Assembly: GCA_900317515.1 (NCBI GenBank)
Contig: ONHA01000011.1
Span: 1-64,000, forward strand
DNA from: an uncultured Eubacteriales bacterium
GTDB taxonomy: Bacteria; Bacillota; Clostridia; Lachnospirales; Lachnospiraceae
Reading direction: 5' to 3'
Length of the DNA stretch: 64,000 bases
Every line of letters starts with the position of its first letter. Within the stretch, counting starts at the first letter, position 1. This document shows, one piece after another, positions 7,323 through 10,615 of this stretch. The position numbers and the translations under genes were made by a program. The notes under the pieces are model-generated. The model had not been told where the DNA came from. It ran no database searches and saw only the letters and a program-made list of their open reading frames with translations.

Positions 7323-7958
7323 TCAGACCGTGTAGACACACGCCTCATCCAAAAGCAGTACCGCCGCGCCGTTTGTGGTCTCGGCGGTGATTTTTTTGAT
7401 CCTCTCACCCATCTCGCGGCGCATCTTAAGGGTCATCACGACGTCCTGCCCGTAGGCGATCTCGGGCTTCTCGATGCCCTCCTTCGCATAGAGGTACTGA
7501 AGCTTTCCCGCGTCCGAGTAGGAGACGCGGAAGGCGATCTTCCGCCCGCTTACGACCGTGACGATTGTTGCGTTTTCAATCGCGGCCTTGACCGCGGCGC
7601 TGTAGGCGCGCACGAGCCCGCCCGTTCCGAGCAGAGTCCCGCCGAAATACCGGGTCACGACGACCGCCGTGTTGTGGAGGTCCTCCCCGTCCAGCACCTC
7701 CAGCATGGGCTTGCCGGCCGTCCCGCCGGGCTCCCCGTCGTCATTGCCCCGCCGGATCTCCTCCGGGGTTCCGGGTACGCCGACGACCGCCGCAAAGCAG
7801 TGGTGCCTCGCGTCGTAATAGCGCTTTCTTATGGCGAGAAGCCGCTCCTCGGCCTCCTCGAGAGTCTCTGCCGGAAAGATCTCTCCTATAAATCTCGATT
7901 TTTTCTCTACAACTTCGCCCACCCCCGGCACGAGGACGGTTCTTGACACATCTTTCAT
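7323..7958 (-). CDS. YigZ/IMPACT family protein
   Basis: 211 aa. The segment EVVEKKSRFIGEIFP, the ARHHCFAAVVG motif, DDGEPGGTAGKPML and VVVTRYFGGTLLGTGGLVRAY are the standard YigZ core. The C-terminal part matches the ferredoxin-like second domain. The family relates to eukaryotic IMPACT and may act on translation; its reaction is not known. The start codon lies only 8 bases from the end of a good -10 box, so the transcript may be leaderless. Confidence 0.92.
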   Translation of the reverse strand: MKDVSRTVLVPGVGEVVEKKSRFIGEIFPAETLEEAEERLLAIRKRYYDARHHCFAAVVGVPGTPEEIRRGNDDGEPGGTAGKPMLEVLDGEDLHNTAVVVTRYFGGTLLGTGGLVRAYSAAVKAAIENATIVTVVSGRKIAFRVSYSDAGKLQYLYAKEGIEKPEIAYGQDVVMTLKMRREMGERIKKITAETTNGAAVLLLDEACVYTV

Positions 7959-7965
7959 AGCCCCT

Positions 7966-8017
7966 ATTGTACAGGAAAATCATAAGAGTTGCAATTCTCT
8001 TCTTTTTTCATTATAAT
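7966..8017. promoter_or_regulatory. Symmetric divergent promoter with one shared -35 box (yigZ and PBP1A)
   Basis: TTGCAA at 7989-7994 is its own reverse complement. Rightward it is followed by a 17-bp spacer and TATAAT (8012-8017). Leftward it is followed by a 17-bp spacer and TACAAT (7971 to 7966). Counting 6-7 bases past each -10 puts transcription starts on or next to the start codons at 8024 (PBP1A) and 7958 (yigZ). No Shine-Dalgarno sequence can lie in such short leaders. Confidence 0.75.
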
Positions 8018-8023
8018 AGCACC

Positions 8024-10615
8024 ATGAATTACACGAACAGACATATCGAGAAAACACTGAACGAATACAGCCAGGAGACGGGGACCCTCGAAACCCGAAG
8101 CGGTCTCTTTGCTCTTCGTGCTGTCTTTTTTCTGCTGGTTCTTATCCTTGTCACCGGGTCCGCCCTCGGATTCGGTGTCGTAAAGGGGATCCTCGACGGG
8201 ACGCCCGACGTCTCCACCGTCAACATCGCCCCCTCCGGGTACGCGACCTTCATCTACGACTCCGAGGGCAATCAGCTTCAGAAGCTGGTCTCCTCCAACG
8301 CGAACCGCATTTCCGTCTCCCTAGACAAGGTGCCCGACTATATGCAGAAGGCCGTCGTCGCCATCGAGGACGAACGCTTCTACGAGCACAGCGGGATCGA
8401 CCCGAAGGGCATCTTAAGGGCGGCATTTGTCGGGGTGTCGAACGGGTTTCATTTTTCGGAAGGCGCCTCGACGATCACCCAGCAGCTCCTGAAGAACAAC
8501 GTCTTTACGACCTGGACGGAGGAAAATACCCTCGTTGAGCGCGTCAAGCGAAAGCTCCAGGAGCAGACCCTCGCCCTCGCGCTTGAGGAGCGGCTCACGA
8601 ATGAGACCGGTTCCCACGCGAACGCGAAGGCCCTCATTCTGGAAAATTACCTCAACACGATCAATTTAGGCTCCGGCACCTACGGGGTGCAGGCGGCGGC
8701 CCAGAAATATTTCCACAAGGACGTCTGGTACCTGACCCTCTCGGAAGCCACCGTCATCGCCGGCATCACCCAGAACCCGAGCGCCTACAATCCGATCCGC
8801 CACCCGGAATCCAACGCGAAGCGCCGGCTCCGCATCCTCGACAAGATGGTCGAGCAGGGCTACATCACGGAAGCCCAGAAAAATGAAGCCCTCTCCGACG
8901 ACGTCTATGCCCGCATCGCCGCGGTTCAGGATGAGAGCACGGGCGCAAGCACGGTCTACTCCTACTTCATCGACGCGCTGACGTCCCGCATCATAAATGA
9001 TCTCATGAATGAGAAGGGCCTCACCGAGATGCAGGCCTCCCGGATGCTCTACTCCGGCGGCCTTCGGATCTACACGACCCAGGACATGGACATCCAGAAG
9101 ATCATGGACGAGGAGTTCGCAAATCCGGACAATTTCCCGGAAGGGACCGAGTACACCCTCGACTGGGCGCTCACGACCTCGGACAAGGACGGCAATCTCA
9201 CCAATTACAGCCGGGAAATGCTCCGCGCCTTCTACCGTGAAAATCTGGACCCCGAATTTGACCTGCTCTTCTCCTCCGAGGAGGAGGCGCTCTCCTACAT
9301 CGCCGATTACAAGGCCAATGTGGTCAACGAGGAGGCCGGCGACAGGATCATCGCGGAGCGCTACACCGTGACGCCGCAGCCCCAGTCCTCCATGGTCATC
9401 ATGGACCAGACGAACGGCCACGTGCTGGCGATCCTGGGCGGCCGCGGGACCAAGACCGCTTCCTTAACGCTCAACCGTGCGACCGACTCCGTGAGGCAGC
9501 CGGGCTCGACCTTCAAGGTCATCGGCCCCTACTCCGCCGCGCTGGAATCCGGCCAGTACACCCTGGGGAGCGTCTTCAGGGATGAGCCCTACCAGTATAC
9601 CTCCGGCGAGGAGGTCCACAACGCGGACGGCATATACCGGGGCGACATCACGATGCGCCAGGCGATCATCAACTCCGTCAACGTCGCGGCGGTCAAGTGC
9701 ATCACCGACCTCACACCCTTTACGACCTTCAACCAGCTCTTAAAATACGGTATCACAACCCTCGATGAGACCCACGACATCTACCAGCCGCTGGCTCTCG
9801 GCGGTATTTACCGGGGCGTCACCAACCTGGAGCTGACCGCGGCCTACGCCGCGATCGCGAACGGCGGGACCTACACCGAGCCGGTATTTTACACCCGCAT
9901 ACTCGATTCCGAGGGCAATATCGTCCTCGACAACACGCCGAAGACCCACACTGCGGTCTCGAAGGACACCGCGATCCTGCTCACCAGCGCCCTTCAGGAC
10001 GTTGTGAGACAGGGAACCGGCCAGCGGCTCCAGCTTGAATGCGGCATGCCGACCGCCGGCAAGACCGGTACGACGACCGGGGCCAACGACGTCTGGTTCG
10101 TCGGCTTCACGCCCTACCTGACCTGCGGGGTCTGGGCCGGCTACGACAGCCAGGAGAAGCTCCCGGACGATGGGCTCTACCGCGCTTACCACCAGATCCT
10201 CTGGCACAACGTCATGGAGCGGATCTCCGAGACCCAGCAGGTAAAGGAGTTTGAGATCCCGAGCGATTACGTCGCGGTGAATATCTGCTCCTCGACGAAC
10301 CTGATCGCGGGCCGCGGATGTCCTTCCTACACGGAGATCTTCGCCCCGGGCACGGAGCCGAGGACCACCTGCAACGGCGAGGCCCACGGCCGCAACTACG
10401 CCGAGGAGATCCGTCAGGAGCAGGAGGCCGCCGAGCGGGCCGCCAGGGAGGCCCAGGAGCGGGCGGCACGGGCCGCCGCCGAGGCAGCGAAGAAGGCCGA
10501 GGAGGCCAGGAAGGAAGCCGAGAAGAAGGCTAAGGAGGCCGAGGAGAAGGCTAAAAAGGCAGCCGAGGCAGCCTCGAAGTCCCAGGCGGCGCCGACGCCG
10601 GCACAGAGACCTTAG
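8024..10615 (+). CDS. Class A penicillin-binding protein (PBP1A-type transglycosylase/transpeptidase)
   Basis: 863 aa, bifunctional peptidoglycan synthase. One membrane anchor (about 31-53) is followed by the GT51 domain with EDERFYEH (115-122) and GASTITQQLLKN. The transpeptidase domain has STFK (495-498), SVN and KTGTT (from 680). The last 75-80 residues are an Ala/Glu/Lys/Arg-rich, probably helical tail outside the cell that ends in a Pro-rich stretch. I chose the ATG at 8024, giving MNYTNRHIEK; a TTG at 7967 is in frame but lies inside the leftward -10 box. No Shine-Dalgarno site is visible, in line with the leaderless promoter. A strong terminator follows. Confidence 0.93.
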   Translation: MNYTNRHIEKTLNEYSQETGTLETRSGLFALRAVFFLLVLILVTGSALGFGVVKGILDGTPDVSTVNIAPSGYATFIYDSEGNQLQKLVSSNANRISVSLDKVPDYMQKAVVAIEDERFYEHSGIDPKGILRAAFVGVSNGFHFSEGASTITQQLLKNNVFTTWTEENTLVERVKRKLQEQTLALALEERLTNETGSHANAKALILENYLNTINLGSGTYGVQAAAQKYFHKDVWYLTLSEATVIAGITQNPSAYNPIRHPESNAKRRLRILDKMVEQGYITEAQKNEALSDDVYARIAAVQDESTGASTVYSYFIDALTSRIINDLMNEKGLTEMQASRMLYSGGLRIYTTQDMDIQKIMDEEFANPDNFPEGTEYTLDWALTTSDKDGNLTNYSREMLRAFYRENLDPEFDLLFSSEEEALSYIADYKANVVNEEAGDRIIAERYTVTPQPQSSMVIMDQTNGHVLAILGGRGTKTASLTLNRATDSVRQPGSTFKVIGPYSAALESGQYTLGSVFRDEPYQYTSGEEVHNADGIYRGDITMRQAIINSVNVAAVKCITDLTPFTTFNQLLKYGITTLDETHDIYQPLALGGIYRGVTNLELTAAYAAIANGGTYTEPVFYTRILDSEGNIVLDNTPKTHTAVSKDTAILLTSALQDVVRQGTGQRLQLECGMPTAGKTGTTTGANDVWFVGFTPYLTCGVWAGYDSQEKLPDDGLYRAYHQILWHNVMERISETQQVKEFEIPSDYVAVNICSSTNLIAGRGCPSYTEIFAPGTEPRTTCNGEAHGRNYAEEIRQEQEAAERAAREAQERAARAAAEAAKKAEEARKEAEKKAKEAEEKAKKAAEAASKSQAAPTPAQRP

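Follow-up and report, generated by a model that had tools for sequence, protein, structure and literature searches.

How two divergent genes are expressed from an interval of only 65 bp, with no Shine-Dalgarno (SD) site at either start codon, is the question raised by the yigZ-pbp1A locus of an uncultured Lachnospiraceae bacterium. The locus lies in a 64,000-nucleotide stretch (hereafter, the window; contig ONHA01000011.1) of an assembly of 2.72 Mb in 79 contigs. pbp1A (8024..10615, + strand) encodes a class A penicillin-binding protein (PBP) of 863 aa, and yigZ (7323..7958, − strand) encodes an IMPACT-family protein of 211 aa; their matches to the PBP1A-family model TIGR02074 (494.6 bits, cut-off 508.75) and the YigZ/IMPACT model TIGR00257 (165 bits, cut-off 167.95) each fall slightly under the curated cut-off. 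Judging from the sequence elements, we consider it probable that the interval is a compact two-way promoter of the sigma-A type, in which one palindromic −35 box would serve both genes and both mRNAs would be leaderless.

The core of this promoter is 52 bp long. The hexamer TTGCAA (7989..7994) equals its own reverse complement and would therefore be read as a −35 box in either orientation. The pbp1A −10 box, TATAAT (8012..8017, + strand), lies 17 bp to one side and 6 nt ahead of the ATG (8024-8026); the yigZ −10 box, TACAAT (7966..7971, − strand; ATTGTA on the + strand), lies 17 bp to the other side and 7 nt ahead of the − strand ATG (CAT at 7956-7958). The palindrome, both −10 boxes, the 17-bp spacers and the coordinates given in the original prediction were all confirmed in the letters, and a promoter scan of the window listed the two promoters with scores of 10/12 and 9/12. 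An extended −10 element (TG one base upstream of the −10) is absent from the window promoter. Because the −10 boxes are so close to the start codons, each message is predicted to begin at the AUG or within about one base of it. For pbp1A, with its gap of 6, the A of the ATG is the 7th base past the −10 (AGCACC plus A, 8018..8024), which is described as the optimal start distance in PMC12825309, and the predicted start is 8024. The yigZ message would start at 7958 or 7959 (−10-to-ATG stretch 7958..7965, − strand), about 66 bp from the pbp1A start. Both mRNAs would then be translated from a 5'-terminal AUG without SD pairing, and two polymerases would presumably be unable to occupy the shared site simultaneously.

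An accidental match was considered, as the interval is AT-rich and TTGCAA agrees with the consensus TTGACA at 4/6 positions. When random 65-mers were generated by a first-order model from the interval's own dinucleotides, 26 of 200,000 gave a comparable shared-hexamer layout, defined as a hexamer of at least 4/6 on both strands flanked on each side, at a distance of 16-18 bp, by a −10 matching at no fewer than 5/6 positions. Since the layout is also conserved in six loci, as described below, we regard chance as hardly credible; for the shared layout, conservation is a stronger test than the random-interval null.

The lack of a usable SD at both ATGs was borne out: no SD match of at least 4 nt usable for pbp1A or yigZ was found in the window. 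The sequence AGGGG ends 2 nt ahead of the yigZ ATG, too near for a usual SD, and is not kept in the genus loci L003 or L004. In a rough call of 49 open reading frames (ORFs) in the window, the match to AAAGGAGGTGA near a possible start was at least 5 nt in 30, 4 nt in 9 and absent in 10, at least one of the last being a spurious antisense ORF. The earlier statement that most other genes in the window carry a strong AAGGAGG is thus fair as to 'most' but overstated as to 'strong'. The start codon of pbp1A appears to be correctly placed. In an alignment of 26 PBP1A sequences of the genus, the common first residue is M, followed mostly by N/D and then Y/F, and residues 4-30 vary; codons 2-50 of the window gene contain no in-frame ATG, GTG or TTG. 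An upstream in-frame TTG at 7967 was not credited as the start, because the −10 box would then fall inside the coding region. A second leaderless candidate in the window (46340, + strand) was also rejected, as its frame looked by eye like an antisense ORF, and no clear start was discernible for a PBP paralogue in the same genome.

We compared the pbp1A upstream region across the window's genus and the rest of the family. The genus set comprised 42 genomes, 39 of which had a PBP1A match; two with weaker matches (G002 and G003) were left out, giving 37 loci. The 81 rows of other genera consisted of about the best-scoring 44 of 148 family genomes with a match, together with 37 of the 39 loci L141-L179, which are mostly titled Lachnospiraceae and some of which may duplicate species among the other genomes. 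L140 (same contig as L017), L172 (start missing from the fragment) and L177 (start unplaceable) were dropped before counting, and L180-L219, 40 of the 80 loci of that listing, stand outside all counts. Of the 37 genus loci, 25 have a −10 box of at least 5/6 within 6-8 nt of the pbp1A ATG (the distance is 6 in 20 of them, 7 in four and 8 in one), and an SD match of at least 4 nt is absent from all 25. In other genera this leaderless layout occurred at one of 81 loci (L086), and an SD of at least 5 nt was present in 71. This comparison of sequences thus gives good support to a leaderless pbp1A. A common layout in other genera is TATAAT, then about 22-28 nt containing AAAGGAGG, then the ATG; a −10-like box lies upstream in 74 of the 81 rows, with a −10-to-ATG gap of at least 22 nt in 71 of the 74. 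As an SD-bearing leader thus usually stands between −10 and ATG in other genera, loss of the leader in this genus is the simplest reading: the window's genus probably lost a short SD-bearing pbp1A leader and retained the promoter.

Two kinds of exception were seen. L086 (genome G073; TATAGT, gap 6) is far from the window's genus in the PBP1A tree and is probably an independent case. The genus loci L008, L009 and L012 have neither an ATG-adjacent −10 nor a normally spaced SD; at these, AAAGGAGG or GAAGGAGG lies at least about 33 nt before the ATG.

Features around the predicted start were also examined. A C or T precedes the ATG in 24 of the 25 leaderless-type loci, and a pyrimidine-purine (YR) start motif is described as universal in the consulted part of PMC4782308; this is weak support only, because C/T, mostly T, is also found in 78 of 92 other rows. 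The stretch from the −10 to the ATG is G+C-rich near the start, with G/C at −2 in 22 and at −3 in 19 of the 25 loci. Such a G+C-rich stretch recalls the discriminators of growth-rate-controlled promoters. In the 25 leaderless-type loci the first 40 nt from the ATG had a mean folding energy of −0.9 kcal/mol, compared with −4.0 for the remaining 12 loci of the genus and −2.5 for other genera; for nt 61-100 the means were −12.8, −13.0 and −5.5 kcal/mol, respectively. An open 5' end of this kind, as modelled, suits leaderless initiation, which is support and not proof, as the non-leaderless loci of the genus show the gradient as well. In addition, a WTGTGAA motif (often TTTGTGAAC) was observed 36-130 nt before the ATG, upstream of the promoter, in 7 of the 25 loci (L010, L016, L017, L020, L027, L028 and L030; reversed control 0) and upstream of pbp1A in 16 of the 81 other-genus loci (reversed control 4). 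This motif may be a regulator site.

The 65-bp interval with ATTNTA-17-TTGCAA-17-TATAAT was found at 6 of the 37 genus loci, and the other 31 lack the shared core. The six form two triplets (G000, G006, G014 and G021, G034, G041), in all of which TTGCAA is invariant and the yigZ −10 is kept as ATTNTA. Their hexamers are invariant at 17 of 18 positions versus 11 of 34 in the spacers (Fisher p 2e-5, a value that ignores relatedness), and when members of one triplet were compared with members of the other (three pairs), 17 of 18 hexamer positions and 15 or 16 of 34 spacer positions were identical. The core is displaced by one base between the triplets (yigZ/pbp1A-side gaps of 7/6 and 6/7) while each spacer stays at 17 bp, and hence it behaves as a single block. 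Across the 42 genus genomes, the pattern TTGCAA-17-TATAAT-N5-7-ATG matched at 17 sites, six of them being the yigZ-pbp1A interval, whereas its backwards control matched nowhere. The expected conservation of the shared hexamer and 17-bp spacers in relatives thus holds within the six loci but not beyond them, and the shared palindromic −35 is a real trait of one clade. The leaderless layout of pbp1A extends beyond the shared −35 and is independent of it.

It is an evenly balanced possibility that this arrangement reflects compaction only, that is, the interval shrank until two ordinary promoters overlapped at the −35, and coupling of the genes is neither selected nor felt. Loci of the same clade speak for this: L005-L007 have no symmetric hexamer and longer intervals (412, 91 and 92 bp), and in the 91- and 92-bp loci yigZ has TAAAAT 6 nt ahead of its ATG and a −35 of its own (TGCACA at 17 bp in one and, by eye, TTGCAC at 18 in the other). 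Five tested E. coli bidirectional promoters with a shared −10 likewise worked without competition at basal activity, according to the consulted part of PMC12825309. Against compaction, two triplets that differ from each other at about half of their spacer positions have both retained the palindrome and the 17-bp distance on either side of it. The same rigid conservation of the symmetric core would favour a competitive switch, in which initiation at yigZ and pbp1A is mutually exclusive through the shared −35, since both polymerases would cover one box, and in which the box persists for the sake of linking the levels of the two genes. That polymerase exclusion regulates the two genes is nevertheless a guess, and a doubtful one. 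We know of no functional link between YigZ and PBP1A, which counts against it. Furthermore, TTGCAA is only a middling −35, and competition in E. coli requires strong promoters, as described in the part of PMC12825309 seen.

A survey of 397 family genomes bears on compaction as well. The pattern ATTNTA-17-TTGCAA-17-TANAAT gave 37 sites in 36 genomes (backwards control 0), and a control with both spacers misplaced (21/21) gave 5 sites. This apparent 7-fold excess shrinks to 37 versus 24 with the fairer one-sided control (21/17 spacers; backwards control 2), so a widespread symmetric −35 design is not claimed; the weak enrichment favours compaction. Two of the symmetric sites (L226 and L227, and sites in G079 and G402) each recur in two genomes of one genus (g34 and g39). 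The g34 site is flanked by genes that by eye encode a Fur-like regulator and a small membrane protein. Both sites may be further examples of a shared −35 that is conserved.

The promoter of pbp1A itself appears to have changed within the genus. TGn precedes the −10 in all 16 leaderless-type loci without a TTGCA(A/T) −35 and in none of the nine with it; these nine carry TTGCAA (6) or TTGCAT (3), each at 17 bp. As TGn is found in 64 of the 74 rows of other genera that have a −10-like box, it is probably the ancestral feature of the pbp1A promoter, and in the window's own clade the TTGCA(A/T) −35 took over from the extended −10. The genus forms one clade in the PBP1A tree (SH-aLRT branch support 99), on which the leaderless layout requires 6 changes (labelled rows) or 7 (all rows), which implies reversions or repeated gains. 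The nine TTGCA-type genomes form one clade in the yigZ tree (97/96), in which the six core loci are not grouped by themselves (approximately unbiased test, p-AU 0.165 for constraining them together). The PBP1A tree groups neither the six (0.138) nor the nine (0.057). It is plausible that TTGCAA was present in the common ancestor of the nine and that its symmetry was later lost in the TTGCAT trio.

On the other side, yigZ lies divergently upstream in 23 genus loci (one at 1,692 bp). A −10 of at least 5/6 was found 6-7 nt from its ATG in 11 of these, namely the six shared-core loci and L006, L007, L010, L020 and L036, and in the remaining 12 an SD match of 4-7 nt is present. In the rows of other genera compared for yigZ, an ATG-adjacent −10 was found only in L097. 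The original prediction called both genes probably leaderless; for pbp1A this is well supported by the comparison above, while for yigZ it is likely within the clade but less firm, its start being less certain in some rows.

We also searched for a more general leaderless habit of the genus, which was rejected. Matches to TATAATNNNNSCATG numbered 135 versus 23 in the backwards control in the 42 genus genomes (pbp1A being 14 of the 135) and 344 versus 166 in 59 other-genus genomes, an excess of 2.7 per genome versus 3.0. In the host genome, TATAAT-N5-7-ATG gave 58 matches versus 34 in the backwards control. Inspection of all 58 by eye indicated that about 8-9 precede real-looking genes, including L055, L105, L107, L108, L114, L121, L041 and L042, which by eye are presumably chorismate mutase, ResB, a transposase, an acetyltransferase, YidD, Tex, a small DNA-binding protein and a dehydrogenase.

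Several observations weigh against a two-way promoter with leaderless messages. Twelve of the 37 genus loci lack the leaderless layout of pbp1A, and low structure at the start is present there too, less strongly. The −35 matches its consensus at only four positions, and the symmetric layout exceeds the one-sided control just 1.5-fold across the family. The yigZ −10 stands 7 nt from the ATG in the window, and fewer loci support a leaderless yigZ than a leaderless pbp1A. The six core loci are grouped by themselves in neither the PBP1A tree nor the yigZ tree, and a single origin of their core is no more than a possibility. Finally, a second + strand match, TTGACA-16-TATTGT (7943-7970), scores 10/12, although it is poorer placed and the pbp1A leader that it could produce, about 47 nt long, would contain no SD. 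Real starts could lie upstream, for example at this match, with the ATG-adjacent −10 minor or idle. As the nearest relative with mapped start sites we used Clostridium phytofermentans, which we take to be a member of the Lachnospiraceae. Its potentially leaderless genes usually have a further upstream start with a ribosome-binding site, according to the consulted part of PMC5171806. We nonetheless judge leadered transcripts quite unlikely at this locus: the upstream TTGACA is retained in neither L003 nor L004, and as an SD of at least 4 nt is missing from all 25 leaderless-type loci, a longer leader would supply none.

The two-way leaderless promoter therefore remains our preferred reading. 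As a tentative and rather improbable extension, the genus would have made pbp1A leaderless and largely kept it so, and one clade would then have tied it to yigZ through one palindromic sigma-binding box, from which the two leaderless mRNAs would be transcribed alternately, so that cell-wall synthesis is connected with yigZ and with conditions favouring leaderless translation. Most work on leaderless genes concerns organisms in which they are frequent. In the present case a single orthologous gene, with a promoter traceable through the family, seems to have passed from SD-led to leaderless, with both types in one genus, and the cost and use of leader loss are thus directly testable. The clade also holds natural controls for the shared −35, namely the TTGCAT genomes, whose intervals are longer and two of which carry a yigZ −35 of their own.

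Judged by titles and the beginnings of abstracts, our searches of an open-access library for divergent promoters, shared or overlapping −35 elements and leaderless penicillin-binding protein genes turned up no description of this arrangement, a negative that extends to those searches only. The closest systems, as far as the consulted parts of the papers describe them, share individual components with it. In the TA-led genes of Zheng et al. 2011 (PMC3160421), a TANNNT −10-like element about 12 bp before the start codon without an SD marks leaderless genes, a class found in 56 of 209 Firmicutes genomes with a mean of 4.2% of genes. pbp1A (TATAAT, gap 6) and yigZ (TACAAT, gap 7), both lacking an SD of at least 4 nt, resemble these genes; unlike that genome-wide class, the present case concerns one orthologous gene whose SD leader was probably lost in a single genus. 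In C. phytofermentans, 4% of one start-site class is potentially leaderless, and leaderless transcription is described as much rarer than in other bacteria (PMC5171806). In Deinococcus-Thermus, a −10 adjoining the ORF yields leaderless mRNA as a common pattern of the phylum (PMC12340547); the −10 abuts the ORF here too, but in a single Lachnospiraceae gene pair and with a shared −35. The bidirectional promoters of Warman, Grainger et al. 2026 (PMC12825309) share a −10, the most frequent distances between their starts being 18, 10 and 23 bp, and at five E. coli promoters competition arises only once one direction is strengthened. As in those promoters, one sequence would engage polymerase in two orientations and site exclusion is expected; in contrast, yigZ and pbp1A share the −35 with the −10 boxes flanking it and the predicted starts farther apart, which is a two-way geometry distinct from the shared −10 type. 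The SD-led pbp1A of other Lachnospiraceae genera is alike in being divergent from yigZ in many loci with a −10-like box upstream, and differs in its leader, which usually contains an SD. Thus, the components are known and their combination is unusual, and the conserved loss of the pbp1A leader is the best-supported novelty of this locus.

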